Source: Rhizophagus irregularis (Eukaryota; Glomeromycota; Glomeromycetes; Glomerales; Glomeraceae). Taken from it: a DNA stretch of 64,000 nucleotides. The stretch lies in contig NC_089447.1 of assembly GCF_026210795.1 (NCBI RefSeq), positions 2,234,501-2,298,500 of the forward strand, in the 5' to 3' direction. Under the pieces are notes generated by a model. The model made no database searches. It saw nothing but the letters and a program-made list of their open reading frames with translations, and was not told the DNA's origin. A program made the translations under genes and the position numbers. How positions within the stretch are numbered: position 1 is the first letter of the stretch; the number at the start of each line of letters is the position of its first letter. Below, in pieces: positions 3,200-40,900 of this stretch.

Positions 3200-3216
3200 G
3201 CAAAAGGATAAAACTA
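3200..3216. repeat. Left target-site duplication of LINE-A
   Basis: The 17-mer GCAAAAGGATAAAACTA is present here and again at 15537-15553, flanking LINE-A. The paralogous MITE at 37610-37640 shows the uninterrupted site (AAAAGGATAAAACTACCACC), which confirms the insertion point. Confidence 0.85.
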
Positions 3217-3359
3217 AAAAACTAAAAAAACTCTCTCCTGTTGCCTTCACGACAATATTGCGACAAAAAATAAAAAAGATTTTTTCGAAGTATTTTTATT
3301 ATTTACTTCGCGTTACTATTAACTATTACATATTTTAGTTCTCCCTTCTACTTCTAGCT

Positions 3360-6604: not shown

Positions 6605-6765
6605 CTTGCCGAAACCTGTTTGGCCTAATGCCGAAAGGTGAAACCTCTTATATAGTGCCGAAACGCCGAAACGCCGAAACTGCGAAATCTGTCAAAATTG
6701 CGAAACTGCCGAAACATGCCGAAACCTCTATAATAGGTTTCTCCGTAGTTTCGGCATAGTTGATC
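6605..6765. repeat. Left subterminal GCCGAAAC motif cluster of the hAT element
   Basis: The octamer GCCGAAAC or its near variants occurs about eight times, some in direct tandem, with inverted copies at the inner edge. A matching cluster lies at about 10918-11070. Clusters of short subterminal repeats are the usual binding sites of hAT transposases, so these are likely transposase-recognition sites. Confidence 0.75.
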
Positions 6766-7104
6766 ATAAGATTTGCATATAGTTACGCCAAGTTACACCA
6801 ATTAATAATATAATTTAGATGATCAAATAATCTACAGATAAAAGATTAAACTTCAATATTTTACCGTCGTCTTAGTTCTTTTAAGCTTTATCTAGTGTTA
6901 GAATTTTCATTTCTAACTCCCATATTAATATTATGATATTACACGTTTTTACAGTTTTTTTTTAAGGGGCTTATATTCATTAAAGGAAAATGCGTAACAT
7001 GCATTTAATAAACCCAATTCCGTCATCTCCTTTAACACTGAACTAAAGTTTCTTTTACTTTCTTCCGTTTTCTTAATAATAATATTAATAATAAACTGTT
7101 TCAA

Positions 7105-9404: not shown

Positions 9405-9576
9405 TAATAATGAGAAATAATTACAATAGTTAATCCAATGAGAATTAATTCTAATATCATGTGATTTAAATAATGATACTATTTAGGAAATAAATGATGT
9501 AATTATGCAGGGCAAAATATTCGCGATCAAAGTCCAGTTAACATATAATTATGCAGGCAATGCAGGCAATTGTAAT

Positions 9577-9735
9577 TTTATATTATATTTTAAAACATTG
9601 CAATTTAATTAAGGAATAAGGATAAGCATATTATATTTTAAAAATAGTGCAATTTAATTAAGGAATAAGGATAAGCATATTATATTTTAAAAATAGTGCA
9701 ATTTAATTAAGGAATAAGGATAAGCATATTATATT
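9577..9735 (+). repeat. 49-bp tandem repeat, about three copies
   Basis: A unit ending GGAATAAGGATAAG repeats with a 49-base period between the two genes of the hAT element. The last two copies are identical. It probably arose by slippage or unequal exchange. I see no coding capacity. Confidence 0.8.
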
Positions 9736-10073
9736 AGAATCAATAAGTTTTAAGGACTTCGTTAATTAAATTTATTACATTAGATCAATAAATTTTAAGA
9801 ACTGCGTTACAAAAAAAAATTTAGAACTGCGTTAATTAAATTTATTACATTAGAATCAAAACTGTGTTTATTTTGTTACAAATACTTTAATTATGTAGAA
9901 TGTTATTATGTTCATCAGTTCATGTTTTAAACATTATAACGAATTTTAAAATTATTATAAATATTATGAAATTTGAATTTTTTTTTCGCAATTCAAAACC
10001 AAATTGTATTTTAATTTTCAAATTGTATTTAATTTTCAAATTTCAAGTTACGAAAAAATCATAAAAATAAAAA

Positions 10074-10748
10074 ATGGCAGCATTAGTACCTTTTGTCCCA
10101 CCACCACCACCAGTATTCCAATGGACGATTAATGCAGCTAGGCAATTAATCGCGGAGCGAAGAAACTTACATCAGCAATTCGAAAGAATTGCAAACCGTC
10201 ATCATGTAAATGCATGGACAATAATAGCAAATAGGGTGTTCGTTGCAACGGGATTTGCAGCGACACCCAGGCAATGCCAAACAAAATGGAATGCCCTCAA
10301 ACGAGGTTATGAAAACCTCAGTAGGATAATAAATAATAATGATGACGACATTCCTATTATAAGCCCAAATAGTTTCGATAGAGCGTGTTTTGCTGATATG
10401 AACGATGAATTCTGGTTACAAACCGGTAATTATTATTAATTATTATTTTAAATTAATTTTATTTAGGCAATTCATTCAATTCATTAATATTTTTATTGGA
10501 TTTTAGATCTGTTTAGACGAGAGTATCGACGGCAGCATGATGCGCATGATCGACGTCGATATGAATATAGATTGCGAAGGGAAAGAAGAAGGTCGCGATC
10601 TAGGTCTCGATCAAGAAGTAGATCAAGAAGTAGAGATAGAAGACGAGATAGAAGTAGAGATAGAAGACGAGATAGAAGTAGAGATAGAAAACGGGACAGA
10701 AGTAGAGATAGAAGAAGAGGTAGAAGCAGGTCCCCACATAGAAGATAA
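10074..10748 (+). CDS. Trihelix/MADF-like DNA-binding protein with SR/RD-rich tail, second gene of the hAT element
   Basis: Exon 1 (10074-10425) starts with MAAL and carries a Myb/SANT-like trihelix domain. The spaced tryptophans are visible in FQWTINAAR, NAWTIIA and QTKWNAL, with the helix end KRGYENLSRI. An intron at 10426-10506 (GTAATT...TTTAG) is inferred because the downstream frame becomes one long Arg-rich tail of alternating RS, RD and RR repeats, ending at TAA 10746-10748. The total is about 144 residues. Myb-like accessory proteins are normal in PIF/Harbinger elements, where they bring the transposase to the nucleus and the ends. I know of none as a standard part of hAT elements. 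A role as targeting partner or RNA/nuclear-speckle-binding protein is inference. It could also be a captured host gene. Confidence 0.7.
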
Positions 10749-10917
10749 AGATATTATTAAATTTTAATTTTTATTATATTTTTAATCGTGTATTTTATTA
10801 GTTTAATATTAAATATTATAAAATAAATATTTACATACAAAAAATCATATTGTCTTTAATCTTTATTCTTATAAATTGTTTAAATGCCGAAACTCTAATT
10901 AAATCATATAGAAAGTA

Positions 10918-11070
10918 TTGCCGAAACGCCGAAACAGTTTCGGCAAGTTACGGCAGTTTCGCGATTTTGATAGGTTTCGCAGTTTCGGCATTTCTTGATG
11001 ATTTCGCGAAACTAGTTTCGGCAGTTTCACGTATGCCATTCTGCCGAAACCCTCTAGTTTCGGCAAGCAA
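10918..11070. repeat. Right subterminal GCCGAAAC/GTTTCGGC cluster of the hAT element
   Basis: Dense copies of GTTTCGGC with some GCCGAAAC, mirroring the left subterminal cluster. Likely transposase-binding region. Confidence 0.75.
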
Positions 11071-14000
11071 CCTTATGCTTTGCCCTCCCATCTTGATAAT
11101 CTTGCATCTTTACTTCCTGATTATTCGGTTCCTACCTATTCTACAACCCCTGCATCTGTATTTAAATCGTTTTTACGATCACAGAAGAATTTAGTTTCTG
11201 GCTTTTTATCTACTAAATTCGCCCAACATCTTACGGACTCAGTTGAATATTATACTGCACTACGTGACGAACACTTTTCAAACTCGCTCGGCACCTTTAT
11301 TGATTCTGCCTTATCAGTAGAAAAACGTTCGATTGTTCTTGACCGTGTCCTGGTTGTCCTGGACTCAACTCCTACTTTATTAACGGATCCTTCGGATATT
11401 AAACAAGCTGCTATTTCTCATTTTCAATCAATTGTTTCTCCTCCGTTGGTCCGCTACTCTTCCATCACTTCATTTCCCGCCCGATGGCAACAAGCTTACA
11501 CTCCTCTAGCCAACGTGTCTGCTTCATTATATGACCCTGTTTTGGCGCCTATTTCTCTACAAGAATGGTCTGCTGTGATTTCCTCCATGCCAAATAACAA
11601 AGCTTCCGGCCCTTCAAAAATTTCTTATGAGATGATTAAACATCTATCTGGTGAAGCCTTGGATTTCTCTCTTTTACTTGCCAATACCTGCCTTTCCCGC
11701 GGTGATATTCCTGCTGACTGGCGTGAAGCTGTGGTTTATCCTATTCCTAAACCCCATGATTTTGATGCTCAACTCAAGAACACTCGACCTATTACTCTTC
11801 TGGAAACAGTTCGAAAATGTGTAGTTAAGGTCGTCACGAAGCGTCTCTCCAACATCCTTGCTGATAATAAAATTCTCCAAGGTGGTAATTTTGCTGGTTT
11901 ACCTGGTGGTTCTACGGATGTCCCTATTAAGATGCTTGATGCGATCATTCATTAACAAAAACATGACTCTACTGATGATCAGGAATTATGGATCGTTTCT
12001 CAAGATATCTCTAAAGCTTTTGATTCTATGGACTTAAATATGCTTAAATTAGCTTTAGATAGATTACATATCCCTGCACTTTTAGTGCGATTTATTTTGA
12101 ATCTTTTTACACGACGAAATAATAAGATAATTACTTGTCATGGCGATACAGCTGCTTATAGAGTACGTGTTGGTATCGATCAAGGAGAAATCATTTCCCC
12201 TCTTCTTTGGGTTATTTATTTGGATCCCTTACTTACTATTTTGAATCAAGAAGCACGAGATCCTTTTATTTTAAAATCTTCAGCTCTTTTAAATTATTCT
12301 CCACTTGAATTTGAACAACATTCCTTACCCATTTCACATTTAACGTTTATGGATGATTCTACACTTATTGCTTCTTCAAAATCTGGGATAGAAGATCGTC
12401 TTTCTATTACTGCTGAATTTTATACTTTAAATAATGTTCAAGCTAATTCAGCAAAATATGTTCTTCTTTCATCCTCTTCGCCTTCTTCGGAGATTACTTT
12501 TGAACTTTCACCTTCCCTTTTAATTTCTGATATTTCTCTTTCCCTTTCTTCTTTACCTCTTAAAACTTCATTTCGTTTTCTAGGAGTTTGGTTTTCTTTG
12601 TCCGCCTCTTCTGATTTTGTTCTGAAACAAGCGCGCTCCATGGTTAAAGATATGGCTGCTCTCCTGGGACCAAAAAATTATTAGCACAACATGTGGCCTA
12701 TCTCTATAATGCTGTCCTTCTTCTGAGATTGGAGTTTCGTCTCCAAACTACTCTTTTCTCTGAAAGTACTATTCAATCAATTATCAAGCCTATGTTTTCA
12801 GTACTTAGAAGAAAAGCTGGCCTTGCTGCTACTACTCCATTAGCTTTGCTTTTCTTGAAACTTCCTTTCTCTCTTCAAAATGCCTTCTATCGCTTTCTTT
12901 CTTCCCACATTGCATCTTGGCAGAAAATCTTCACTCATCCTGATTTTAAAAGTTTTGCCCTTTATGCTATCTCCTATCTTCAAGGATTTTTGGGTGCAGA
13001 AAGCTGCCCGACTACTATTAATTTAGAACCATGGTCACAAGTCGTTTCTTTACAGACGCATACCTTGTTTAATTCATTATTATTCTCTTCACGTTTGAAC
13101 ATCACGTGGTCTCTTTCCTTCCGGCCTCTGAGGCGTAATCTACAACCTGCTTTGCCACTCCGATCTATTCTACCACATTCCATTTTTCAATCAAGTTGGA
13201 AACTCTGGAAAAATTTGAATATATTTGTGTTTGCTCAACTGGTTTCTCCTTGTGGACGTTATCTCATGAATTGGCCTGACCTTCGGTATCTTGGCATCGT
13301 TGGTCGTAAAGGACGAATTCCTAATTGGTTTAATTTTATTAATAATAACTTTCTTTCTTCTTCTTCTTCTTCTTTACTTTTGCCTTTGTATTTTATTAAT
13401 TCTTCTTTTACTCTAGCTTCTCCTTGTTTATTAGATCATACTGTTAAAGATTATTCCTTTTATCCTCAATGGGCTATTAATTTTGATTCTGCTACTCAAG
13501 CTTTATCTGTTGGTCGTGTGTGTATCACCTACAAGAAACAAAACTCGGCTATTATGTCTCATTGGCTTCCTATATCTGCCCTGGCTGATGAACGATCCTA
13601 TAACCCTTGTCCTGGTTGTGCTCTTAACATCCCTGCCTTATCCAAAAAATCTGCCATTAAGCAACGCTGTAACAGCGAAAAGTGTTTCTTCAATGTTACT
13701 CTATCAGAAACTGTGGGCTACCCTTCCAAAAATGCCAAAGTGTTTGCGGCTTACCTTCCCATTACTTTATCTACTTCATGGAGTTATGCTACTTCCTTGG
13801 CTCTTGTTCATTTATTGAACACGCCCTTATCCGCTTCTCCTGCTCTTTCTCCTTCCCATAAGGACAAAATAGATGATAATATCCTGCCGCTTTCTGTGCA
13901 ATCTATGTATACAGATGGTTCGTTCCATCCCACCAAAGATTCTTCGCCTTCTTCCATGACTTCTGCTTGGATTGCTCTTGATGATGATGGACTTGTTCTT

Positions 14001-15266
14001 GAAACTTCCTCCATGCATCTCCCTTCCTTTTTCCCTTCAGCTTTGCGTTCTGAAATTTCTGCTGTTCTATTAGGATTGAGCGCCCTCTCCTGTGATTCTT
14101 CAATCTCTATTCATACTGATTGTAGTCGATTAATTTCACTATGGACACAGTTTGTTGATGCTCCTTTCTCACCGAAGTTGCTTCGAGAACCCAATCATCT
14201 TCTTTGGCTTTCTATTCGACATTTTGTTATGGAACGTAGTCTCAAAGTTGACTTGATTAAAGTCCCTGCTCATGGCGATGATATCTACAATATACAAGTG
14301 GATTCTCTGGCAAAAGATGCACATTCGTCTTTACAACCCACTGCTCTACCCTCAGCATTTTGTTATGCTCCATGCTTGTTGACCTTTAATTCCTTGCCTA
14401 TTGACGTAAATATTCATCATTTTCTCCGCTCCATTGCAGATGCTCGTGCTCTTTTATCTTTCTGTTCGCTGGCACGTTTTACTGCTCTCGGACCTCCTTC
14501 ACTCTTTGATTGGGCTGGTATATATTTTTGCCTTTCACAAATTAAAGGTTTTGTTTCGCATAGGAATGGTCGTCCTGAATTTTGGATCTTCCGTATCAAA
14601 CTTCTTTTGGATATGTTGCCTACCTTAACTACTCTTCAACGACGCAAACCCTACTTATACTCTCCTGATTGGCTTTGTCCGCAGTGTAATTCTGCTCCTG
14701 AGGATTTGAATCATCTTTGGACTTGTCCTTACATTTTACCGGAGTTAAATCCGTGTTTAACACACCAATCTGAAGTCATTAAATTTAGAGACTCTTGTTT
14801 ATCTTCTTTCCTTTTCTTGAAATCTTTGGATATTTCTTTCCAGACTGAATTTCTTGCTTTGGATTGTTGGAACTATGAAGCTCCTTCTTCATCCTGTCTT
14901 TGGCTCACTCGAGGATTGTTGCCTGCGCATTTAACGGCCTTTTTGAATCAACACTTCCCTCTCTCTATTATATACAAAACTATTTCTCCTCTTCTTAATG
15001 ACTTCCAAGTCGAATTATATGGTGAAATTTGGCTATGTCGGAATGTTCTTTTCCATGCTTGGGAAGAGTCGCAGGGTATCTCGGCTGCTTCCAAATTACG
15101 TGGCCCATCTACAACTTCTTCTTCTACTGTTACTTCTTCACAAAATATCAACTCTTCTTTGGCGTCGGTTTCTCAGGATTCCTGGATTTCTTGGATTTCC
15201 TCTTCTATAATTCGGGGTGGATCATGGATCTCGCACTTGGATTTTCTGCGCCGCTTAACAGTTTAA

Positions 15267-15536
15267 CCTCTTAGGGTCTCTTTCTGGTAACGGACTGGAT
15301 TTTTGGACGTTGGATAGTTGACTCACACTGGCCTTCGGGTAAAGTTGGGGTATGCGATTCTGTAATAGTTTAGTTTTTCTTTGCTTTAATTTATTTTAGT
15401 TTAGATTTCTTTACTTGTATGAGTCGTGAAGCTACTCTTTTTATTTTTAGTTTATTTTCTTATTTTTGTAATATTGTTCGATTATACTTTCGAAATTTAA
15501 ATAACAATAAAATAAAATCATAAGACTGTTTGCACA
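15267..15536 (+). other. LINE-A 3' untranslated region
   Basis: About 270 bases after the ORF2 stop. The sequence matches the 3' UTR of LINE-B and the truncated LINE-B copy (minus strand, 28211-28460 and 28994-29260), including the terminal CATAAGACTGTTTGC. There is no poly-A tail; the conserved end is likely what the reverse transcriptase recognises. Confidence 0.75.
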
Positions 15537-15831
15537 GCAAAAGGATAAAACTACCACCATTCGATTCATCTCAGTGAGACGATTCTAACAAGCTATGATA
15601 CATCTTTGTACGATTATTAGATGCCAGTTATTTAATATATTCTTTATATAACTGTGATTATAAACGGTTTTTTTTAATATAAGATTTTTGAGGATAGGTG
15701 TGATAGTGACTATAGATAGATTGTGACTATATAGGATAGTTTTTAATAATAAAGTGTTTTGAACATTCAACTGGTGTGACTATATAGTAGAATGTGACTA
15801 TAACGGGAATGACTATAGAGGGAGTTGACTG
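15537..15831 (+). mobile_element. Right part of the hairpin-repeat MITE, with terminal repeat
   Basis: Starts with the right LINE-A TSD (15537-15553) and continues almost base for base like 37615-37903. It contains a hairpin unit at 15557 and ends in a terminal repeat GAGTTGACTG followed by TA (15832-15833). The matching inverse terminus CAGTCAACTC occurs at 27135. TA target duplication and CAGT-type ends suggest a Tc1/mariner (pogo-like) non-autonomous element. Confidence 0.7.
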
Positions 15832-24779: not shown

Positions 24780-27133
24780 CTTAACATTTATGGGGCATAA
24801 TATTAACGGTTTTGGTCCTGACGATTTTAAACTTAATGTTCTAATGGACTACTATACAAACAAAAGAGCTAACATTGTGGGCATATGTGATATGTGAAAC
24901 TAACAGAGATAGGAAAAACGGAAAATTTTGGAATAAGTAAAATCCAGAATATATTTCATTCTGGACCAACAAGGACAACAAGATTAAAGGATCCAGAGTT
25001 TGTATTGTAATTAATAGGAAATAAGAAAAACACCTAGGAAAGGTTAATAGGGTAGGTGCTTATTACATAGAAGCTCGGTTACTTTTTAAGAATTGCACAC
25101 TCGTAGTGAGCGTAGTGTACATGCCACCATCAGACATAGAGAAACAAAACGAATTGACTAATCACATTAAAAATGAGTTTATGAATCATAGTAAAAAAAA
25201 TAGATATTACGTTTTGATAGGAGACTTGAACTCGTATTTTGACAAATCAATGGATTACAGTGGCCCATCCAAACTCACTAAGAAAACTTCAAACATCATC
25301 ACATAGCTAGACGACTCTTTTTTTGTGGACACATTCAGAAAACTAAATCAAAAAAAGAAGCTTTACATGGACAAACAGAACTACATCAACCAGAATCGAT
25401 TATATATGGGCAGATCCGAAGCTTGAAGCTAAACTAAAAAAGAGCCACATATACCAATCAGCCAACGTCACAGATAGTGACCATAATATTACACTCGCAG
25501 AAATCTCTTTCACAGATATAATAGCTACTAATAACAAAGGTGGTAGAAGAGCTGAGAAAAACACAAGACGCATTATATATGATTATGAAAACACCACAAA
25601 TGAACAATGGAACAAATACGAAAACCACCTCAAAAGTCTCTTAGAGAAGCGAAAAGCCTTTGGTTATATAGAAACCCACAGACAAAATGAAAACACCCTA
25701 AATGAACTATAGGACATTATATGTAACTGTATACAACAGGCCTCACCCAAGCACATCCCACACAAAAAAGTAGGAGGTACCAAAACTAACCTCAATAGAA
25801 ATTATAAAGAAATAGAAGACTCTTCAAAAGAACATAAAGATCTTTTATACATAAGAAGTATAATGAGGAAACTATACAAGAACGAGTTGAAAGGAACAGA
25901 ATTAATCAAGGCGTCAGAAGGGATCAAATTGTTCAACCAACGGTATGGAACTAATATCTCCCAGCTAACAGAAAACACAGATTGGTATACGTGAAAATGT
26001 GATACTAGAAATTGGTTAAAGTTAGTCAGAAGAATGATTAAATTGAAAGATAAAGCTTGCAAAGAAGCAACAATAAAGAGGAGAATTAAGGAAAGGAACA
26101 ATATGATCACCACAGATCAACGAAAAATGATTAATAGTATACTAGACAAGACTTACTCCAGAATTAACCTGAACAGGATCCACATAGCCACAGACACACA
26201 GGAGGAAATCCTCTTGAATTCTAAAGAAGAAGTTCAAGCAGAAGCCATTAACACATTCTCATCAATATTCCGTTCAAAAAATCACAAATTTGAGAATCTA
26301 CCTGAACAATGGAAAGACATATATAAACCACGAGCTGATATTGACCTGCAAATTTATGATCATTTAGATGATATGCCGATAGAACAAGAATGGAACGAGA
26401 TGCTAAACACAATGAATGATAAATCAGCTCTGGGTATATCAAACATCAGCTACAAATTAATAAAGAAAGCAGATGCTGAAGTAAATGAATTATTCAGATG
26501 ATACACGGGTTTGTGTTATTATCTGCAGAACATACTAGTAAAATGGAAGATATCCCAATTGTATCCGATCCCCAAGATATACGATTGGGATTATAATTTG
26601 GCAAGAATGAGACCAATACTTTTAATTGAATGTCTACGCAAATGTGCGGTCAAAATTATTATAAAGTGCTTCAGTAGCATACTCAGCAGACACGCAATCT
26701 TAAAAGGACCAAATTACGCAGGCTTACCAGGCGAATTAACATCAATTCCACTAACAATAATAAACAGTATATTAGAGGACGCCCATGAAGAAAATAAAAC
26801 ACTATGGATCGTGTCTCAGGATATGGCGAAGGCGTTTGACAGCGTTGGAATGATCCCCCTGCAAAAAGCTTTGGAAAAGATTAAACTGCCACATACCATC
26901 ATTAACTTCATCATAAACATATACAGGAACCGTAAGATGAGAATTATTACGGTATACGGTTTAACGGACGCCTTCACTGCGCAGGACGGTATTGATCAAG
27001 GTGAGGTGATATCCTCCTGGTATGGAGGATTTTCTACGACCCTTTACTTCACAGAATACAAGAAGATGAATCGTTAGGTTATACAATAAAACTGGAATGG
27101 CTGAATAACGTAATCTGCAATGAGAAACGGAGT
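24780..27133 (+). pseudogene. LINE-C ORF2, left part (endonuclease and RT)
   Basis: The endonuclease is recognisable from NINGFG, VVYMPPS, VLIGDLNSYFD, RIDYIWADP and SDHNITL, spread over three frames with several stops. The RT region shows [47 protein letters not shown] and [10 protein letters not shown]. It stops at TA 27133-27134, where the composite element inserted. The sequence is related to ORF2 of LINE-A but belongs to a distinct, more Lys/Ile-rich family. Confidence 0.75.
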
Positions 27134-27172
27134 ACAGTCAACTCTCTTTATAGTCACACATTTGGGACAGTC

Positions 27173-27188
27173 CATATTTGGTGATTAT
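27173..27188. repeat. First of five copies of the target site CATATTTGGTGATTAT
   Basis: The 16-mer occurs at 27173-27188, 28195-28210 (first base T), 28650-28665, 28978-28993 and 36981-36996. It brackets each of four consecutive retroelements. Nothing else separates them, so each looks like a target-site duplication made at the same nick. Confidence 0.9.
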
Positions 27189-27684
27189 TTTACAAGTGTA
27201 TTGTACGTTTAGTGGCCACTACTTTCCGCACCCTCTATTGAAGGATATGGAGGTAGGTCGTTTGTATCCTCACCATCATTGAACCACCAGATGTCATCAA
27301 GGCCACCTTTTAACCAAGACAACTTATCCAGCACGTCCATCAATCAGGCATACCCCAGGGACCCGAAGGCCTTTGGATCGGAAGAACACCACCCTACTCG
27401 TCCTTTAATCCGTTGCATGATACTGTAATGGCTACTATTATAAACCCCTCACCACTACTACTGTCACGGAGGACTTTCGTCAGATAACTTTCAAACATCT
27501 AGACCCCTTCCATACCACCATATTAGGTAACAGGTCTCACTCAAAGGCCACTACAGCCCGCGATTACCTACCACCGATAGTACAGTTGTAATCCCCAAGT
27601 GGTATACTTTGTAGTGACCACCTGGACAGTAAGCTTGTAGGTGTTACCCAAAATCATCCCTTATGGTGGGTATCAACCACTAGG

Positions 27685-27800
27685 AATCACCAACCAGGGC
27701 CCATCAGAGAAGGGAATCGAACCCAATCACCAAGCTATCTGTCTGTGCACGAACACCTTGGGTGGTCTATGACCTAACAGAAGGTCAAACTACCACTAAG
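27685..27800 (-). promoter_or_regulatory. Second tRNA-like A/B box pair inside the SINE
   Basis: Minus-strand TTAGTGGTAGTTTGA (A-box-like) precedes GGGTTCGATTCCC (B box) by about 85 bases. With the 5' head this suggests a dimeric or composite tRNA-derived structure. It may be only a relic; spacing is at the long end for pol III promoters. Confidence 0.5.
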
Positions 27801-28104
27801 ACATTGCACCCTCAGCTTTACCATCTAGGATGACCATCTAGCCATTACCTGACCCCTGCCGGTATCGTAGCCGACCTACCCATTGACAGGAAGTTCCCTC
27901 CGGCGTATAGTAAGTGGACCTCAAGGACAGGACTGCGCACATGCCAATGGCCTCATAGGAAACGTTAGAAGGACACCATGACCCTTAGTTGAAATGTGCG
28001 GCCTAACCGTACACACTAATTCACCATGATGCAGTCCAACTACACTAATCCCTGTACCTTCACGCTATTGGTTGTAGCGTCCGCAGTAAAATTCTTTTTA
28101 TTTC

Positions 28105-28192
28105 CGTGGTCATGGGAATCGAACCTGCGACCTCACCATACTCAGGCTTAATGAGGGTCTCAGTGACTAACCACTAAGATAGGGTGACCAAC
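28105..28192 (-). promoter_or_regulatory. tRNA-like head of the SINE (internal pol III promoter)
   Basis: The A box TTAGTGGTTAG and B box GGTTCGATTCC are about 50 bases apart, with an acceptor-like pairing TGGTCA/TGACCA closing the structure. A long variable arm is possible (Leu/Ser-like), but I cannot assign an anticodon. It is not called as a functional tRNA because it is fused to the SINE body and lies exactly at the element's 5' end. Confidence 0.65.
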
Positions 28193-28210
28193 CCTATATT
28201 TGGTGATTAT

Positions 28211-28649
28211 GAGCAAACAGTCTTATGACTTTATCTTTTATTATTAAATTTAAACGAAAAGTACAATAAACAGATCGAACAATATTACAAGTATCAAATA
28301 TAGAAAATAAACATAAAAATAAAAAGAACTAGCTTCACGATTCATACAAGTAAAGAAATCTAAACAAAATAAAATTAAGTAAAGAAAAACTAAACTATTA
28401 CAGAAACGCATACCCCATCTTTACCCGAAGGCCAGTGTGAGTCAACTATCCAGCATGTCCTAAGATCCAATCCGTTACCAAAAAGAAATCCTAAGTAGAG
28501 GCTGAACTGTTAAGCGGCGCCAAAAATCCAAATGCGAAATCCAAGATCCCCCACGGATTATAGAAAAGGAAACCCAAGAAACCCAGGAATCCAAGGAAGC
28601 TGTCGCCAAGGAAGGTGTCAAAGAGTCAAGAGGAATGTTAGAGGAAGGT
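28211..28649 (-). mobile_element. 5'-truncated LINE-B copy (3' end only)
   Basis: This 439-bp piece is nearly identical to the 3' end of the full LINE-B at 28994-29430, including the terminal GACTGTTTGCTC. It covers the 3' UTR and the last codons of ORF2, then stops at the next copy of the 16-bp target site. This is a typical 5'-truncated product of target-primed reverse transcription. Confidence 0.85.
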
Positions 28650-28665
28650 CATATTTGGTGATTAT

Positions 28666-28977
28666 TTTACAAGTGTTTTGTAAGTTTAGTGGCCACTACT
28701 TTCCGCACCCTCTATTGAAGGCTATGGAGGTAGGTCGTTCATTGCATCATCCTCACTAAGCCATGATGTAACCATCCCTGCCACCTTTTAACAGGGACAA
28801 TTCAACACCACAACCAGAACGCAAGGACTTATCCCAGGGACCCGAAGGCCTTCGAATCTGCTGAACACCACCCTACTCGTCCTTTAATCCGTTGCATGAT
28901 ACTGTAATGGCTACTATTATAAACCCCTCACCACTACTACTGTCACGGAGGACTTTCGCCAGATAACTTTCAAACAT
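28666..28977 (-). mobile_element. 5'-truncated copy of the SINE-like retroposon
   Basis: 312 bp matching the 3' third of the SINE at 27189-28194, ending at ...CTTTCAAACAT. It shares the 3' terminus (ACACTTGTAAA on the minus strand) and is bracketed by the same 16-bp site. It differs from the full copy by many substitutions in its middle, so it is not a recent local duplication. Confidence 0.8.
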
Positions 28978-29259
28978 CATATTTGGTGATTATGAGCAAA
29001 CAGTCTTATGACTTTATCTTTTATTATTAATTTTAAACGAAAAGTACAACAAACAAATCGAACAATATTACAAATATCAAATATAGAAAATAAACATAAA
29101 AAATAAAAAGAACTAGCTTCACGATTCATACAAGTAAAGAAATCTAAACAAAATAAAATTAAGTAAAGAAAAACTAAACTATTACAGAATACGCATACCC
29201 CAACTTTACCCGAAGGCCAGTGTGAGTCAACTATCCAGCATGTCCTAAGATCCAATCCG

Positions 29260-32200
29260 TTACCAAAAGGAAATCCTAAGTAGAGGCTGAACTGTTAAGC
29301 GGCGCCAAAAATCCAAATGTGAAATCCAAGATCCCCCACGGATTATAGAAGAGGAAACCCAAGAAACCCAGGAATCCAAGGAAGCTGTCGCCAAGGAAGG
29401 TGTCGAAGAGTCAAGAGGAATGTTAGAGGAAGGTTGAAGAATAGAAGAAGGCCCAAGAGCTGACGATTTCATTTTTTTTGTAATGCCTTGAGCTAATTCC
29501 CAATGATGGAAGAAAATGGATCGGCACAACCAGATTTGAACATAAAGGTCAAAATGAAAGTCGTGCAAAGGTGTATCTAAGATAGACCATATGGTAGGTG
29601 AAGAAAAATAATTTCCAAGAAATTCAGTCAAAGATATCGGTATAAGTCCTCTTGTGAGTCGCAGGCAGGAAATTGAAGGAGGGTCACAATCCCAACAATT
29701 AAGAGCCGTAAATTCAGCAGCAAAAGAGTCTGGTAAAGGTATTAAAGATGATGCGGAAAGGAAATTATCAAGATAAGTAGTCCGAAGAGCCAATAGTAAT
29801 GTTTTAAAAGTTTGTAAAGGGCTAAATTCCGGTAAAATGTAAGGACAAGTCCACAAGTGGTCTAAAGTCTCAGGAGAAGAGTTACATTGAGGACAAAGCC
29901 AATCCGGATTATAAATATGAGGTTTTCGTCTCTGAAGAGTTGTAAGCGTTGGAAGCATATCTAAAAGTAGCTTGATACGGAAACCACAAAACTCGGAACG
30001 GCCATTCCGATGAGAGACAAAATGTTTATTGTTATTGAGACAAAATTTGGTGCAAGCCCAATCAATATCAGAAGTTGAAGAATAAGAATTAAATCTTGGT
30101 AATACAGCAAGAGTTAAAAGACTTTTGGCGTCAAAAATATCTCTAATAAATTTCCGGATATTCATATCCACAGGTAAGGAATTAAATTGTAAAATGCAAG
30201 GAGCCATCAATTCCGAGGGTGGACAAGAAGAAAGATCTGAGTCAGTATGAGCGGCTTTGGCTAATGCATCCACATGATTATTCAAAGGGACGTCAGCATG
30301 AGCAGGAACCTTGATCAAGGTAACATCCAGATTCTTTTGCAACATAATAGTGCGTATGGAGGACCACAAAAGGTGGTTGGATTCTTTAAGCATTCTGGGA
30401 ATAAAAGGAGCATCCACATATAAAGACCATAAAGAAAGTAATTGAACACAATCAGTGGCGACAGTTATCGAAGAATTCCGAGGGAGGGAGTCTAATCCAT
30501 GTAATAAAGCAAAAACTTCTGAACGTAAAGCAGAAGGAAAAATGGAAGAAATAATATTATAGTGAGATTCTAAAATAAATCCATCAGGATCTATAGCAGT
30601 CCATGCGTAGGCCATCGAGGATGTCGGATGACTAGGAGGAGAAAGGAAGGAACCATCAATATAAAGTGTAGACACCGAAGAAGGAAGTTGGATATCGGAA
30701 GTCCTAGACACTTGATCAGTTATAGGAGGTAGTTGAACCGGAGCAAAAAGCTGGAATAATAAAAGAGATTTGGCATAGCCTAACGAGGCAGAAAGTGAAA
30801 CCGAGCGAGTATCCGCGTGTATATAAGTACGTGGTTTCGTAGGATAACGGATCAAACTTGATAACGGAACATGAGAAAAACATCCTTCGGAGGGACATCG
30901 TTTAATCAAAGTCTTAGAAGTAGAGGATCGCGGAATAGCAGAGGCACAACCTTGGCATGCAGTAAAATCAGAAAGCAAGTCATCAACTGAAGACGCAATC
31001 CAATGTGAAATAAGAGCTTCATTACGTGGAGTAGGATAGGTAGTAATCACACGGCCAACAAGAAAAGAGTTAGTATTACGATTAAAAGAAATAGCCCATT
31101 GAGGGTTAAACCAATAATTTCGACTAACGTCGATAAAAGAAATGGAAGCTACTGTATGAGAAATAGGAATCTTAAATTGCGGTAAAACAAAAAAGGAAGA
31201 AGAATCAGAAATAACAATAAAATTAAATAAGAAAGTAAACCAAGCAGGCACAGATCCTTTGTTCGAAACTCGTTTAAGAAAGCGTAAGTCTTTCCATGAG
31301 AGAAGTCGAGAGCCACACGGAGAAACCAGTTGGGCAAGGAAACGAGTGCCAAAATTGTTTCGAACATTTTTCATAGAAGTAAATAAATCTTTCGGTAAAA
31401 TAGACCGGAGTGGAATCGCCGGACGTAAGTCTTTTCTCGGAGGTCGGAACAATAAAGACCACGTGATATTTAAACGAGAGGAGAACAATAAAGAATTAAA
31501 TAAAGAATGTGTTCGCAAGGAAAAGGTATGGGACCATGGTTCCAGATCAATAGTAGAAGGGCAGGCATCGCAGTCCAAAAAACCTTGAGATAAGTAATCA
31601 TATAATTAGCAAATAGCTTATATGAAGGGTGAGAGAAAATTTTCTGCCATGAAGCCACATGGGATGATAGAAATCGACCAAACGCTTGTTGAATAGAGAA
31701 AGGCAACAGAGTGAAAAGCGCGGAAAGAGGAGTGACTGAGGCCAAACCAGCCTTCTGTCGAATAAGAGAAAGCATTGGAGAAACCATGCGATTAATGGTA
31801 GATTCTGCAAATAATGTGGTTTGTAGGCGAAATTCTAGCCGCGGAAGTAGGACAACGTTATAAAGGTAAGCTACATGTTGTGCTAAAAGTTTTTTAGGAC
31901 TGAGTAGAGCTGCCATGTCATTAACCATGGAGACAGTTTGGTTATGAACAAAACGAGAAGAAGCTGAAAGGTTAAACCAAACACCTAAAAACCGAAAAGA
32001 TGTAGATAAGGCTAACGCCTTTAAAGTAAGAGTAGGATTCAGAATTAAAGGGGAAGAAGAAAGATCAAACTCTATAGTTTGTGAAAATTGTTCAGAAGAA
32101 AGAAGGATATATTTTGCTGAATTTGCTTGAGTATTATTTAAAGTATAAAATTCAGCAGTAATGGAAAGGCGATCTTCAATTCCTCGTTTGGATGAGGCAA

Positions 32201-34620
32201 TTAAAGTAGAATCATCCATAAATGTAATATGTGAAACAGGAAGATTGTGTTGTTCATATTCAATTGGAGAATAATCCAATAATGCAGAAGATTTCAAAAT
32301 AAAGGGATCACAAGCTTCTCGATTAAGTGTGGTAAGTAATGGATCCAAGTATATAACCCATAATAGTGGAGAGATGATTTCACCTTGGTCAATACCAATT
32401 CTAACTCTATATCCAGAAGTATTACCATAATGTGTAATAATTTTATTATTACGCCTTGTAAAAAGGTTAATGATAAATTTAATCAATAAAGAAGGTATAT
32501 GTAGACGGATTAAAGCCAATCTAAGCATGTTCAAATCAATTGAGTCAAAGGCCTTAGAAATGTCCTGAGAAACAACCCATAGTTCTTGGTCATCGCTTTT
32601 ATCAAAGCGTCGTTGATGAATAATAGCATCAAGCATCTTAATAGGAATGTCGGTGGAGCCGCCTGGTAATCCAGCAAAATTACCACCTTGGAGCACTTGA
32701 TTGTCAGCCAGGATTTTTGATAGTCGAGTTGTAACGACCTTAACCACACATTTTCGTACTGTTTCCAATAGAGTGATAGGTCGCGTATTCTTCAATTGTG
32801 CGTCAAATTCATGAGGCTTTGGAATGGGATAAACAAGCGCTTCACGCCAATCAGCAGGAATATCTCCATGAATGAGGCAAGCGTTGGCTAGTACAAGGGA
32901 CAAATTAAAAGCTTCTCCAGTTAAATGTTTGAGCATCTCATAAGAGATCTTGGAAGGACCAGAGGCTTTATTGTTAGGCATAGAGTTAATAGTATTTTTC
33001 CATTCATCGGTCAGAATAGGAGACATAACCGAAGTATATAAGGACGAATCAAAGTCAGAAAGAGGAATATATGCTCTTTGCCAACGCGGAGGAAACGAAT
33101 CAGTGGAAGAATACTGGACCAAAGGAGGAGTAACGACCGATTGGAAGTGTTTAATAGCAGCTTGTTTGATGTCGGAAGGATCAGTAAGTAATGTGGGCTT
33201 GGAGTCAATAACAACTAAGACTCGATCAAGAATGATAGAGCGGTGTTCCACTGATAGGGCTGAAGAAATAAAAGAGCCTGGAGATGTAGAGAAATGTTCA
33301 TCTCGAAGGGCAGTATAATATTCAATGGAATCTACACGATGCTGATGAAATTGTGTGGTAAGAAAAGCTGAAACCAAAGCTTTTTGTGAACGTAAAAATT
33401 TGACAAAGGTAGGAAGTGGTGCTGTACTATAAGAAGGTATAGTATAATCCGTTAAAAGAGACTTAAGGAGGATTAATTGAGTAGGTAAAGAATTAATCAT
33501 TTGTGAAATTTGAGCAGGACGACTAGGCCTAGAAGTGGTCAATTTGAACAATAATCTATCCAAAAATTTGTTGATAGCAATAAGCATTGTAAGTTCTGGA
33601 GAATATTTATGGTGATGAGTATTGGATACATGTTGGAATGGTAGAGAATCAATGGCACCGCCAAGAATAGAACGTTTAAGAAGCGTGCCAAAGTTTGTCC
33701 AATGAAAGAGCTGAAAGTGAAGATACTGAAGGATGATGTGTGGTCAAATACAACTCAAGACGCGAGTTCACTTCAATAGAAAATTTGTCCCAAGTATCAT
33801 CTTTCAAATTTTTGTAGAGAAAAATGGTGCGTTGTTCGCTTTTTTGTTTTAATCTAGCTTTGGCTAAAGTAGCGAAACAAGAACTAAAATCAAAAGCCGT
33901 TATAAGTACACGGTGATCAGTAAATTGATTATCATTCAACTTAGGACAAGTTTCAACATGAGAAAAAAGACCAGGAGCGGGAAAGCCAGGGGATGACCAA
34001 ATATAATCAAGTCTTGAAGAACCATTCTGATGATAAAAAGTGGGACTAGGACCTGAAATTGAAGAAATATGGGATTGATGATCCGTGAAATATCGAGAAG
34101 AAAGTGATCGTAAAATTTTTAAATGATGTTGAGGAAGATGTGAATGTGAAATTTCATCGCATTAAAATCGCCAAGGATGACTACGTGATAGTTATTAGAG
34201 CGGGCTTTATCAAGCCATAAATTAAGTTGGGCAAAAATAGCATCACGTTCTTTATAATGAATAGAGTGATAAGGAGGAAGGTAAACAGAAATAATAGAAA
34301 TTTTTGTTTGATGGAAGAAAAGATCTAATTTTAATAAACGACCTTTCCAAGGATCGATCTTCTGAACATGTTTATGTAAAGGATGGCGAAGCAAAAGACC
34401 AACACCATCATGTGGTCGTGAATTACAAGGGGAAGGAGCCCAATAGGACTTAAAATTATATAAGGAATGTTCATTTTGATAAATAAATTTAGCACCAGAA
34501 GAAGTAAGGCGAGTATCATTTAAGGATAAAACGCCAAAGGAGGAATGGAGAAAATAATTTAACAAATGCAGTTGTCGAACAGGAGAACACAAACCATTGA
34601 CATTGATTTGTCCAAAATTA
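29260..34620 (-). pseudogene. LINE-B ORF2 (endonuclease, RT, RNase H), frameshifted
   Basis: Endonuclease piece 34119-34592 (LSLNDTRL, VILGDFN) shifts frame near 34158 and continues with SRLDYIWSS and TDHRVL to about 33690, where a second shift leads into the RT frame (33587-31470). RT motifs: NKASGPSKISYEM, PIPKPHEF, DISKAFDS, GIDQGEIISPLL, FMDDS. A third shift in a T-run near 31585 leads to the last frame (31578-29260). RNase H there keeps its acids (YIDGS, RSEVF, ATDC, VDALAKAA) and the CPQC...HLWTC motif. The C-terminus runs about ten codons longer than in LINE-A. Confidence 0.85.
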
Positions 34621-34879
34621 ATAAGGGGGAAGAAGGAGAAGAGAGATTATTAGAATTATTAAAATTAGGTATCGCACTATTAGGGGGGTGAAATCCCTGT
34701 GATACACCCGATATAAATTGGTGTTCAATCATTAGAAGGGGAGGGTTTTGAAGGAGAGAAGAGTCAATTTTTCCATAATCGAACCAAGTTGGGCAGAAAG
34801 ATTCTTTTGTGTATTAGTAACATTAAAGATTTCGATTGCAAACGAAGCGTTAGCATCGGGGGTGGTATTAATAGGTCGG

Positions 34880-36845
34880 GAGACAGGTAAGGGGACATGT
34901 CGTCTTGATAGGATTGGAGCTGCCAGTCCTATTGGGCTGAGAAAAGCAGAGGAGAGACGTCCATAAGAGAAGAAGAGATATTGGGGGGAAGATTGAATCC
35001 AGAATTCGCGTCTTGGGGTGGAATATCATCCCATCCATGACTATAGGAATGAGTTTCTTGATCGTTATGAGGTGGGTACAAATCTGAGTCACCGGGATTA
35101 ACGCTATCATAATTCATCATCGATTCAAGCTCGGAAATTCTATAATCATGATTCGTGATAGTATCCTGCATCCAGGAAACAGTTTCGTCAAGAGATTTAA
35201 GGGTAGTAGCAATCTCTTTAATCTGCGCCTTTAATTCATCAATAATATGTTGAGGAAGCATAGGGGCAGGATTGTCCGATGGAGAAGTAGGTGATGGAGA
35301 ATTGACAGAATGAGGTTTGTGTGGAGGTCGAGTAGAACCGGAGGAATTTGTATTGTTCCTACGATTATTAGGATTAGTATTGTTCCGGTTGATATTTTGA
35401 GAAGTATTGGGACGAGAAGTGTTAGGAGTATTATTGTTGTTGTTGGAACGGGATGAAGAGGAATTATTATTGCGGGATCTAGAGTTGGAACGCGATCTTG
35501 AACGGGAAGTGGAATTGTCACGTGATTGGCGCGAATCCTGACGACCACGTCTAGGTCCAGCATTAAAACGAAAAAAGTTTGTTAAGGCGATCATCCACTT
35601 TCCGAGTAGGACGTGGATTACGTACAGAGGGAGAACAACCAGGACGCCCACAAACATGGCATAAAGTTTGTGCTTCATCGTGAGGGTGCCATGTTAATCC
35701 TTTGCCGCCGGAAAGCCACGGTCATTTCTTTGGCAGCTTCAAGGATTCAAATGAGGAGAAATTCAAATATACATAAGGGTTTAGGTTTGTAGGAATTGAT
35801 AGACAAAGGGATGTTAAGGGCACGCGTTGACTTGAGTAGCGATTTCTAACAGATCAGCTTCTTTAATATTCTTAGGATGCCGGCAAGGATAGCAACATGT
35901 TCTCTGCGGCTATCGCGTTGGGATTTCGAAAAAGATGCCGGGCAGACACGTAAAGAATTACCAAGGCAAATGATCGCCCAAATGTCATTAAATTGGGTAA
36001 CTGCATCCGTGGAAGAAAACTGGATATGACCATTATAATAATGTTTTCGAGGAGTAAGTTTGCACTTAATAACAGTGCCGTATCTGGAAAAATGCTTGAC
36101 GACTTGAGTCCTCAGTTAGGAAAAGCGGGATATCGGTGACGAACAAAGACTTCATCTCATCACTGAGTTTGGCATCTGCAGGGGAGTAATGCATAAAGAC
36201 CAAATCAAGGAGATCGGCACGTGGGAACTGACACAATCGGTATAATCATGCTGATCGTTAAAGAAGACAAGGATCTTTTTGTTATCGCCTGATCCTTCGC
36301 AACGTGCACGAGCGCCATAAGAAGAGTAACGGGAGAGTGAACAATCTACTTCGTCACACATGGAGCGATTGGTAGTGAATTTAGCTTTGAACGCGTCAGG
36401 CGCGTCGCGTAAATATGCCGCAGCATAGTAACGAGATGGAGCGGATTTTATAGCGGCAGCATTACCATCGGGGGATGGTCGTCGTTCTGGAATATCAAAG
36501 GCGACAGCTTTGCCTTTACACTGCTGGGGGTAGAGGGAGCATGGATAGAAGCGTCAACAGTTTCAACAGGAGTGGTAGTATTTTGAGGAGATGTAAGCAC
36601 TTGGACTTTGTTGACCGGAAGACCTGAGGGAGTGGTAGAAATAAGGTTGGGAGCTGAAGCAGAAGGTGAAGTTATATCAACATTCATAGCGTCATCGAGA
36701 CGAACGCGTGAACGTTTGTTGGGCGCGCCAGCGGTACTAGTGGGAGATAAAGGTCGGTCTCCAGAGGGAGTAGAAACAACAGGACGCGGTGGCGGCGGAA
36801 TATCCGGGTTAATAACAGAAGGAGCTGGAGTTGTAGACGTAGTTT
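34880..36845 (-). pseudogene. LINE-B ORF1 protein, degraded
   Basis: Pieces in several minus-strand frames match ORF1 of LINE-A: a Pro/Ser/Thr-rich N-terminus (36845-36448), a piece with RYSSYGARARCEGSGDNK, a CCHC-like knuckle near 35640-35670, an RS/N-rich stretch near 35400-35560 and a coiled-coil-like segment (IKEIATTLKSLDETVSWMQD) near 35170. No ATG opens the N-terminal frame, so the start is lost. Confidence 0.65.
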
Positions 36846-36996
36846 AGAGCTCAGTAAAGAGGAAAGCAACTGTGGAAATATTAATATTTTGAACGAGCAC
36901 TTAGAAATTTTCGAACGAAAATTTCAAAAATAAATTTTATTAGTATTTTCAAAAATTCAGGAAAGAGTTGCGATGATCCTCATATTTGGTGATTAT

Positions 36997-37903
36997 AAAG
37001 AGATGTGACTATATAAAAAATTTCTTATATTTGTATATCATAATTCCGGCCAAAAATTAACATAATTTTAGCCAGAATTATACTTAAAACTTTATTGTAT
37101 CATAACTTCGCCAATATTAATCGTAGAGAGATGATCTTACCGCCATTCGATTCGTCTTGATGAGACGGTTCTAATGGTATAAAATACGTTGAAATCCAAT
37201 CACTAGATTAATTTCCGAAATTAAAAAAATATTAATGGTTTTTGTGTAATAACTCTGCCAAAATTGATCCTAAAAAGACGATCTTACTACCATTCGATTC
37301 GTCTTGATGAGACGAATCTAATGGTATAAAATACATCGAAATCCAATCACTAGGTCAATTTCCGAAATTAAAAAATATTAAATGGTTTTTAAGTAATAAC
37401 TCCGTCAATATTGATCACAGAGAGATGAGCTTACCACCATTCGATTCGTCTCGATGAGGCGATTCCAACGAGCTATAAATCGACTTTTTACAATCACTAG
37501 GTACCGAGAAATCTAGCAAAATGTTAAATGGCGCAGTAAACGTAAATCAAGAAATATTATAATGCTGATGTTTAACATTTTGTTGAATAACTCGTCAGCC
37601 AGTAATCGGAAAAGGATAAAACTACCACCATTCGATTCGTCTCAGTGAGATGATTCTAACAAGCTATGATACATCTTTGTACGATTATTAGATGCCAAGT
37701 TATTTAATATATTCTTTATATAACTGTGATTATAAACGGTTTTTTTTAATATAAGATTTTTGAGAATAGGTGTGATAGTGACTATAGATAGATTGTGACT
37801 ATATAGGATAGATTTTAATAATAAAGTGTTTTGAACATTCAACTGGTGTGACTATATAGTAGAATGTGACTATAACGGGAGTGACTATAGAGGGAGTTGA
37901 CTG
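36997..37903 (+). repeat. Right part of the MITE, with four hairpin units
   Basis: Hairpin units lie at about 37139-37177, 37289-37325, from 37436 and from 37627, with stems ACCATTCGATTCGTCT...AGACGAATCTAATGGT in the best copy (one mismatch in 16). It then runs through CAAGCTATGATACATC to the terminal repeat. This segment shows the uninterrupted site into which LINE-A jumped in the sister copy. Confidence 0.8.
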
Positions 37904-40900
37904 TATAAAGATACGAACTGCCGCTTTAGCATACGCAGATGACACACAGTGGATAGCTAAAAGTAAAGTCGAAGCAACAAAAATATCACTAATTGCTAAT
38001 GAATTCTTTGACATTAACGATATTAAGATAAATGGAGGTAAATCTGAAATTATAGTTGTAAATCCAGAAGATAGCAATGAAAACGAAAGGTTTATAGAAA
38101 TAGGAAAAAATAAAGACAAAGTGTTTGCTAATAAAGGTTCAGATGCAATACGAATTTTGGGAGTGTGGTTCAAAGCAGATAAAGGAGACAAACATACAGA
38201 ATTGATAGTGAAGAAAGAAATTTTAACAATACTAGGGGCCATTAGACGTAAACACATAACTCACGCATAGATAATATACATTATAAATACCGTTTTACTC
38301 CCAAGGCTTGAATACAGATTAAAAACCACCATCTGGGAGGATAAAAAATACGAAGAAACCTTCAGACCAGTTATGAAGGTAGTCAAACATAAAGCGCGAC
38401 TCCCTACTAGTTGTCACGATAATATTCTCCTACATTCAGCACAAGGCAAGTTAAAAAACTTATGGAGAAACCAAATAGCCGCGCAGATTACAGAGCTCTA
38501 AATGCAAATGCACAAATAAGCAGGCAGATATGCTCAAAATGAGATTAAAAAAAGCACAATTAACGTTGAACATAACATCGTGTATCTTAATGATCAACCC
38601 CGACGTCACAGTCCCGAACAAGATGTTGAACAATCATGCGTACAACATGGCAAGGAAAGCACATGACTATTTGTTTAAATTCCATCCGTTAACGGAAAGC
38701 GAAGAATGGAACATACCAATAATCAGTCCAAACATGCAGAGACTTCATATACAAACAAGCGCCAGAACTGCAGAAAAAAGATAAGGAACTCGCCAATGCA
38801 GAAAAACGACGCTCTCCATACACAGAATTTTGCAACTCTTGAATTATGATGCATCGAACACAGTCACATGGCAGCAAATATGCGATTTTAATAGGAGACA
38901 AGCAAGAGGAAGGACTCTGAAATGATTTGTCACGCTATTAAGCCTAGTGCAACAGTTACCTCAACTTAAAGACTTTTGTAAGATAAGTGTGGAGTCCGTT
39001 AACTCAGAAAGCGAGTCAGGAATGGACAGAGAATTTTTAATTAACCTTCAAGCAATTAAAATGACAAAAAAGTTCCATCCACAGATGGCAGAAAAAAGGA
39101 GTTTGTTTATACACAACAGGATCACACGCTAGTAATAAGACAAATTAACAAAAAGAATCAGTCAGGAAAGCATACAATGCAGTATTGGACTACTAATGTT
39201 GATGACCAGAGAGATGACAATGGAGTAATAATTATACAACGTTGCAGTGGTTGCGCATTAAATGATAAAAAGGTCAACAAAGGAAGTCACGGCTGCTATT
39301 TTAATAGGAACCATTCAGATTTAGCTTGCATAAATAGGATCTCTAGTTGCAAAAACATTCCCAATACTAAAAGTATTAAAGATGTTCTGGAAATTAGAAA
39401 TTGTCCGAGAAACAATATATCCCAGAATGGATACCTGGTCTCATACAAATACACGATTATGATACAGCCCTCATTCAAAATACGTTATTAAATAAGGAAG
39501 CTGTGATATAACACACATCGATATTGCATCTTTTAAGATCACTGTTCAACTCAACTGACATGATCAACATATATACTAATGGTTCATTGACAACTCGGTT
39601 TAATGCGAATTCAAACACCTTTACAAAGCATATGGGCACAGGTTGGGTGATACTGAATGATAAAGAGGAGGTGATACTGGAATGTAGCAGCTCAATTACA
39701 GAATGGCCTTCATTCACACGCGCAGAACTAGGAGCCATCCTATCAGCTATACTTGTCCTACAAACAAGACAGAGAGTAAACATTTTTACAGATTCTCAAG
39801 CTGCAATAGACAGTATTAATCACACAAGAATAAATTTGACAAATGGAAAAAATAAAATACGAGTATGGTGTAAAAGTAATAACCACAGTATAGTCAGCAG
39901 CATAATTAACTTTGTTGATAGCAAACACTTAGAGTTAAAACTAACAAAAGTAAAAGGGCATTCAGGAATCAAAGGCAATGAAGAAGCAGACAGAGTGGCT
40001 AAGAATGATACAGAAAGACTAACTTGCATTACAATTAATGACTCACAACAAAAGGACTTAAAATATGATATATATTGGGATGGTAAAAGAGTTGACAGAC
40101 ACATTAGAAAATTTATAGATAATATATGTGAATCCGTACTAGAGGTAGCATAGTCCTTTAATCGTGCACACAGAACAATTTTTCAAGACACAACGTGTGT
40201 GATAGAAGAAAAAGTCACATGGGAATTACTTAAAAAAAACACAGTTCTTAATTGTACAACATCAACAATAAATGACAGATTTATTAAGCACCTGAAACTG
40301 ACAAATAATCTGCTACCAACTTAGAGATTATGAAAGAAAGGAGATATGATCTATATGGAGATGTAAAGTGCAGAATGTGTCTTGAAGAAAATGAAGACGA
40401 TGATCACATAATCTATTGTCAGCAACTTAGAGACAAATGGTTAATGGTGGTGAACAACACTATGCATAAATGTGATCAAATGCTTAAAGACTTACTTTCG
40501 CAAGAGAAATATCTCCAACTAAATCAAGAGGATACACAACTATTACTTTTGTGGAATAGAAATTTTTTTAGCCATACAATAGATCCTAATCAAGAGTTAC
40601 CTATTCCCTTCGTACATTTAATGCTAAAAATTTTTTTTCCTAAAGAAAAATATAGAGAAATCAAGCTTATTTTTAAGTCAGAAAAAGCTACACTAACAAT
40701 TACTACTCTTTTTTTAGAAATATTTATTAATGAATTTTATAAAATCATTTGGCAATCACATTGCAACTTAATAACAGAATGGGAACGCACAAAAGGAATC
40801 AAGAAGCAAGACTTAAGGAAGAAAATACCAGCACATCAACATATTACATATGAACGAACTCTAACTCAACAAATAGAAGGTGATACTTATGACTTAAAGG

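Follow-up and report, generated by a model that had tools for sequence, protein, structure and literature searches.

Serial reuse of a re-created 16-bp target site very probably explains a stack of SINE and LINE copies in a DNA transposon of Rhizophagus irregularis

In the window analysed here (a stretch of 64,000 nucleotides, G000:C19:2234501-2298500, part of a 147-Mb, 32-contig genome), two SINE and two LINE copies lie one behind the other with a copy of the same short sequence at every boundary, which raises the question of how four retroelements came to occupy one place. The first-pass annotation described five identical 16-mers that bracket two SINE-like and two LINE-B insertions, all on the minus strand and with unlike truncation points, and the block coordinates given below agree with this bracketing. 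The identity held for four of the 16-mers, as CATATTTGGTGATTAT occurs exactly at 27173, 28650, 28978, and 36981, but the separator at 28195 (TATATTTGGTGATTAT) has one mismatch. We propose that the pile exists because the LINE and the SINE share a 16-base landing site, which every new insertion restores. Site-specific insertion of LINE-B and the SINE, with the target restored by each target-site duplication (TSD) and reused serially, is very probably the explanation of the stack. The features are as follows, with the strand given where one was assigned:

27135-27188: left end of the host DNA transposon, with TIR CAGTCAACTCTCTTTATAGTCAC... and TA at 27133-27134; it ends in target copy 1 and was aligned with the empty copies L020-L024
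27173-27188: target/TSD copy 1, exact
27189-28194, minus strand: SINE1 copy, full length, 1006 bp; the best other genomic copies are 95% identical
28195-28210: target/TSD copy 2, one base different
28211-28649, minus strand: LINE-B copy, 5'-truncated, 439 bp; 430 of 439 aligned positions equal the 3' end of the full-length copy
28650-28665: target/TSD copy 3, exact
28666-28977, minus strand: second SINE1 copy, 5'-truncated, 312 bp, diverged; 268 of 307 aligned positions equal the other SINE copy
28978-28993: target/TSD copy 4, exact
28994-36980, minus strand: LINE-B copy, full length, 7987 bp, broken frames, with Exo_endo_phos, RVT_1, and RNase_H domains
36981-36996: target/TSD copy 5, exact
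36981-37903: remainder of the host DNA transposon on the right side, which contains 147-bp internal repeats and is followed by TA (37904-37905)
37608-37624: second target site of the host transposon, GGAAAAGGATAAAACTA, empty here; LINE-B2 and SINE2 use the same site elsewhere

The odd base at 28195 may reflect junction variation and not a later mutation. In the sense of the element, this junction reads AAATAT-A-GGGTTGG, and such variation is possible because other full-length SINE copies vary at the same junction (AAATAT-GGGTTGG or AAATAT-AT-GGGTTGG). The window stack gave no usable signal for the order of insertions, and any order proposed for it is conjecture.

The 16-mer is not confined to this locus. 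At no more than one mismatch it was found at 721 places genome-wide vs. 9 for the reversed-pattern control, and chance is therefore excluded as the cause of its recurrence. Exact sites numbered 530, and 9-10 flanking bases were examined. Among the 100 of these that were listed, 68 had transposon sequence on both sides and were thus empty, 16 kept the left flank of the transposon with an element on the right, and the remaining 16 sat above or between elements; these flank labels were assigned by script, with two degenerate left flanks counted as transposon. The same 100 sites included 25 element 3' junctions, all of which were either GAGCAAACAG (LINE-B) or TTTACAAGTG (SINE), with AAGCAAACAG as the single LINE-B variant. 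Judged from its flanks, the 16-mer recurs across the genome as a constant position within a DNA transposon, and it is the evident target of LINE-B and the SINE.

The target lies about 40 bp inside one end of the host transposon. Five empty loci (L020-L024) become homologous at TA-CAGTCAACTCTCTTTATAGTCAC, which varies slightly among them and lies about 40 bp from the site, and they stay so for at least 500 bp across the 147-bp internal repeats. In L022-L024 the homology continues for about 1.1 kb, up to an inverted copy of the starting end, while L020 and L021 diverge earlier. Where both ends could be identified, the transposon measures about 1 kb, and in the window the transposon consists of 27135-27188 plus 36981-37903. 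Tc1/mariner-type transposons have TIRs beginning with CAGT and duplicate TA. All four copies with both ends seen (L022, L023, L024, and the window copy) have such TIRs and a TA beside each end, and the host looks like a non-autonomous DNA transposon of the Tc1/mariner type. An older LINE-like reverse transcriptase frame on the plus strand (26034-27132 and 37906 to about 38600) appears to be split by the host transposon. The reverse transcriptase frame runs to about 27132, a frame with IRTAALAYADDT follows at 37911, and from their motifs the two appear to belong to one LINE. The window thus appears to hold a nest of three levels, in which an old LINE contains the DNA transposon and the transposon contains the retroelement stack.

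The first-pass annotation had proposed that other insertions of LINE-B and the SINE be inspected for the same target motif, and the motif was present throughout. All 100 listed LINE-B 3' ends (of 114 counted) stood at ATAATCACCAAATAT with at most one mismatch (86 without and 14 with a mismatch); in a single case 6 extra bases come before the target. All 68 SINE 3' ends stood at the target as well, 57 exactly, 8 with one mismatch, and 2 with two; in the remaining copy the 10-nt tail is duplicated, still at the target site. Since all listed LINE-B and SINE 3' ends adjoin the target, their orientation is fixed too. A LINE-B copy at L040 carries Exo_endo_phos, RVT_1, and RNase_H in one frame of 1924 aa, and a comparison with solved structures gave hits to R2, LINE-1, and a further two reverse transcriptase entries. 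With insertion at a site and with endonuclease and reverse transcriptase in one ORF, LINE-B is, on sequence grounds, a target-specific APE-type non-LTR retrotransposon, for which cleavage of the target is predicted. In a protein search, 63 of 1302 initial candidates were scored and yielded 65 matches, most of them 84-96% identical. The frames that hold three of these matches exceed 1,900 aa, and in two of the three the match is free of stops; the family may therefore still be active.

The first-pass annotation had also suspected machinery common to LINE and SINE. This stands as far as site, orientation, TSD, and occurrence in mixed stacks are concerned, all of which are the same for both, but the two elements have no common 3' end, as their last 80 nt are without similarity. 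The SINE has no ORF of at least 150 aa. Because a common 3' end is missing, the case for trans-mobilisation of the SINE by LINE-B is built on the common site and orientation, which suggest that LINE-B would supply the machinery. Short motifs were found in common between SINE1a and the LINE-B 3' UTR, internal and reordered, with an alignment score above all 300 shuffles and with 9-mers that 0 of 500 shuffles matched. This motif similarity is weak and only a lead, because SINE1b shows less of it (23 of 500 shuffles as high for 9-mers and 13 of 500 for 10-mers) and SINE2 shows none of it with LINE-B2 (143 of 500 shuffles). Common 3' hairpins of the LINE and SINE tails were also considered and dropped, as five folds gave z from -1.47 to 0.72.

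SINE1 contains two B-box-like motifs, GGTTCGATTC, at sense positions of about 70 and 472, which we take to fit the B-box consensus. A tRNA scan of the SINE with ARAGORN in bacterial mode was negative, and an Rfam search gave no match; the support for a tRNA origin is weak. Position 341 is the starting point of three genomic matches of the SINE at 27189-28194, and close to it lies an internal GGGTAGGTC, similar to the SINE 5' end, GGGTTGGTC. With its two B-box-like motifs, the matches from position 341, and this internal copy of a 5'-end-like sequence, SINE1 looks like a dimer. Recurrent SINE matches of 74 nt (query 933-1006), seen in four loci (L026, L027, L028, and L034), were considered as repeated truncations, and this was rejected. 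They are read as BLAST breaks at a variable region because the L028 sequence continues past the break like the second SINE of the window; among the four loci, it is L028 that gives this reading.

Copies that match only SINE positions 1-737 or 1-802 led to a second SINE, SINE2, which, across roughly its first 730 bp, agrees with the SINE1 body at 660 of 717 aligned positions, with a short further match just beyond. SINE1 and SINE2 thus have a body of 730-800 bp in common and different 3' tails. In L025, L031, and L036, SINE2 stacks at the second site of the same transposon, GGAAAAGGATAAAACTA. The LINE at this site, LINE-B2, has the 3' end GACTGTTTGCACA, which was counted 123 times. Of these, 100 were listed; the second site adjoins 73 of them at no more than one mismatch and 12 at two. 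As for the other 15, one stands at the second site with a 1-bp deletion, and two are LINE-B-like at the first site. The rest were classified by eye: six have a sequence similar to the corresponding position of the 147-bp repeats, two fall in between, and four match neither. From this spread, LINE-B2 is less strict than LINE-B. Exact second sites numbered 291, and the 100 listed comprise 32 with transposon on both sides and 28 that follow a LINE-B2-like 3' end, the rest being flanked on at least one side by a SINE or other sequence, by flank labels assigned by script.

The ORF2 products of LINE-B and LINE-B2 align from the endonuclease to near the C-terminus and are closest in the endonuclease and reverse transcriptase, whereas the RNase H domain was matched in LINE-B only. 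Because the LINEs are sisters and the SINEs have a common body with different tails, we regard it as probable that one transposon family offers two dedicated landing pads, ATAATCACCAAATATG for LINE-B and SINE1 and GGAAAAGGATAAAAC for the sister pair LINE-B2 and SINE2, that the target was switched within one LINE lineage, and that the SINE followed by a change of tail. If this is true, the two-pad system would be a natural experiment on LINE target specificity and on recognition between SINE and LINE. A comparison of the sister LINEs, with their different sites and matched SINEs, would map the determinants of site choice and SINE recognition. The last 400 nt or so of LINE-B and LINE-B2 (window 28994-29434, minus strand; L037 8241-8633) are about 83% identical vs. 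66-71% for the coding DNA, despite the different targets. A second copy of the host transposon in the window (3200-15553) has a LINE-B2 insertion at the second site (about 3217-15536, plus strand) that contains about 4.5 kb of other DNA, and both of its TSD copies are GCAAAAGGATAAAACTA, a local variant of the second site.

Stacks like the one in the window were found at many loci. By the labels that a script assigned to the 100 listed LINE-B 3' ends (of 114), transposon sequence follows in 49, a recognisable element 5' end in 35 (23 LINE and 12 SINE), and other sequence, presumably truncated elements, in 15, with one left unlabelled. When neighbouring LINE and SINE 3' ends within 12.5 kb were joined, 16 clusters with at least three and up to eight ends were obtained on 12 of the 32 contigs. 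The clusters differ in composition. Thirteen of them have a single orientation; the other three, the largest included, hold both orientations, and each of these three is therefore more than one locus. An assembly error at the window, where the stack is known from the genome assembly alone, is highly improbable in view of so many clusters on different contigs, mostly of one orientation and each composed differently, and of stacks that carry an allele of their own. In L029, which belongs to the C12 stack, four full-length SINEs in a row are framed by two LINEs, with the target at each boundary between elements.

The alleles of the target are the evidence that best separates the possible origins of such stacks. 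In the C12 stack, all seven listed 3' junctions read ATAATCAACAAATAT (CACC to CAAC), the top site has the same allele, and this allele occurs in none of the 161 other listed junctions, one of which was read from L034. C5 and C27 are each marked by a distinct allele, found at five sites in the C5 stack and at three in the C27 stack, as judged from the junctions seen, with the lowest target outside the view and with C5 running into another LINE piece; one further listed occurrence of each allele, at C15 and C32, lies next to transposon sequence. In clusters C15, C16, C23, and C10 some junctions differ from their neighbours, which later mutation would explain. Copying of the target from local DNA at each insertion predicts alleles common within a stack, while 16-mers borne by RNA or template jumping predict none. 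Since a private allele was found at every junction seen in C12, C5, and C27, every insertion must have duplicated the site present at its own locus, with later insertions using that duplicate in turn. The proposal of the first-pass annotation that the same nick was used repeatedly, as each TSD restores the site, is thus borne out by three stacks and holds for many loci. Such stacks are a clean record of serial TSD reuse.

The same annotation had offered a single event as the alternative, in which the reverse transcriptase jumped among several RNAs at one nick. This would account for the mixed order of LINE and SINE, and template jumps of R2 are on record (PMC3414825), but jumps alone leave no target copy between elements, and the inner copies in the three other stacks carry the private allele of the stack and so came from local DNA. 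For the window stack, which has no private allele, the judgement is made by analogy with the allele-marked stacks, and one event of this kind is extremely unlikely. It is equally improbable that the 16-mer belongs to the element termini or was brought by read-through RNA of a source copy. The 16-mer does lie beside every listed LINE-B and SINE 3' end, which is literally the observation that the first-pass annotation expected to overturn its reading, but it does so as the target: 68 of the 100 listed copies have no adjoining element, three stacks have private alleles, and the sister LINE-B2, 83% identical over its last 400 nt or so, mostly adjoins another sequence. The alternation SINE, LINE, SINE, LINE could also have come from insertion of one pair followed by tandem duplication through recombination at the TSDs. 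This is very unlikely, as the LINE 3' ends are 98% identical (430/439) vs. only 87% for the SINEs (268/307), and all boundaries differ (1006 vs. 312 bp and 439 vs. 7987 bp). Recombination between TSDs may have trimmed or expanded other stacks. For serial reuse itself, an urn model with blind reuse of any copy predicted 19.5 occupied loci (sd 1.8), close to the 16 found, and a preference for occupied sites (P(≤16) = 0.055) is not claimed.

Sequence comparison establishes the constant site and orientation, the TSD, the empty sites, the repeated copying of a local allele, and the presence of two pairs at two sites. As for the mechanism, we hypothesize that serial reuse proceeds by target-primed reverse transcription. 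The APE-type endonuclease of LINE-B, as the presumed agent, would nick the plus strand of the window at CATATTTGGTGATTAT^AAAGAG in the multicopy transposon, and the freed 3' end would prime reverse transcription of LINE-B RNA. The RNA of the non-autonomous SINE would be reverse-transcribed in trans at the LINE-B nick. Cleavage of the second strand about 16 bp away would then duplicate the site, and, as the duplicated 15-17 bp would still be a target, every insertion would add one more landing site to a head-to-tail pile. The LINE-B system appears to recognise its 15-17 bp site even with one flank replaced by an element, and 530 exact natural sites were counted.

Among known site-specific LINEs, R2 has its own 28S site and belongs to a different clade from R1, and Tx1L of Xenopus inserts in a DNA transposon family. 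LINE-B is like Tx1L in being a site-specific APE-type LINE at one site of a transposon; we know of no SINE partner or two-site partition for Tx1L. Target-specific non-LTR elements, some of which target other transposable elements, are treated in a paper that cites work on the Tx1L endonuclease (PMC8869645), and elements targeting other transposons are known more generally (PMC8869645, PMC4640811). Utopia is target-specific for U2 snRNA genes, with one family occasionally in tandem (PMC4640811); unlike LINE-B, it has a restriction-like endonuclease and a gene as target. The first-pass annotation knew of no described case of such a stack, and here it has to be corrected: R1 in Drosophila 28S rDNA forms head-to-tail arrays with a 14-bp TSD between copies, explained by insertion into the TSD (PMC2718515), and non-autonomous R2/R1 SIDEs are interspersed in R1 arrays (PMC3414825). 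The R1 and LINE-B systems both have an APE-type site-specific LINE, a TSD between head-to-tail copies, and non-autonomous passengers in the same arrays. A stack of this kind is what one would expect when the TSD of a site-specific LINE restores its target, a behaviour known in R1. In contrast to R1, whose target is an rRNA gene, LINE-B uses a dispersed DNA transposon. The passengers differ as well, as the SIDEs of R1 arrays are LINEs with internal deletions and are described as distinct from Pol III SINEs (PMC3414825). The passages on R1 in these sources are silent on any further sister pair at a different site within the target (PMC2718515, PMC3414825). What goes beyond R1 is thus the dispersed-transposon host, the SINE partner, the allele-marked serial reuse, and the two sites with two pairs. 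A paper on transposable elements of R. irregularis lists SINE, L1-Tx1, and L1-R1 families, and the words 'site-specific', 'tandem', and 'nested' do not occur in its main text as available (PMC11075540). A literature search whose scope lay largely outside subscription journals yielded, among the papers listed, no published description that we recognised as the LINE-B/SINE system. Site-specific LINE proteins are under development as insertion tools (PMC11371274).

A last observation concerns the 5' junctions. The SINE copies at window 28977 and at G000:C17:3683200, which belong to different stacks, start at the identical base, ATGTTT..., and the resemblance of this start to the target end ATATG suggests microhomology at the 5' junction.
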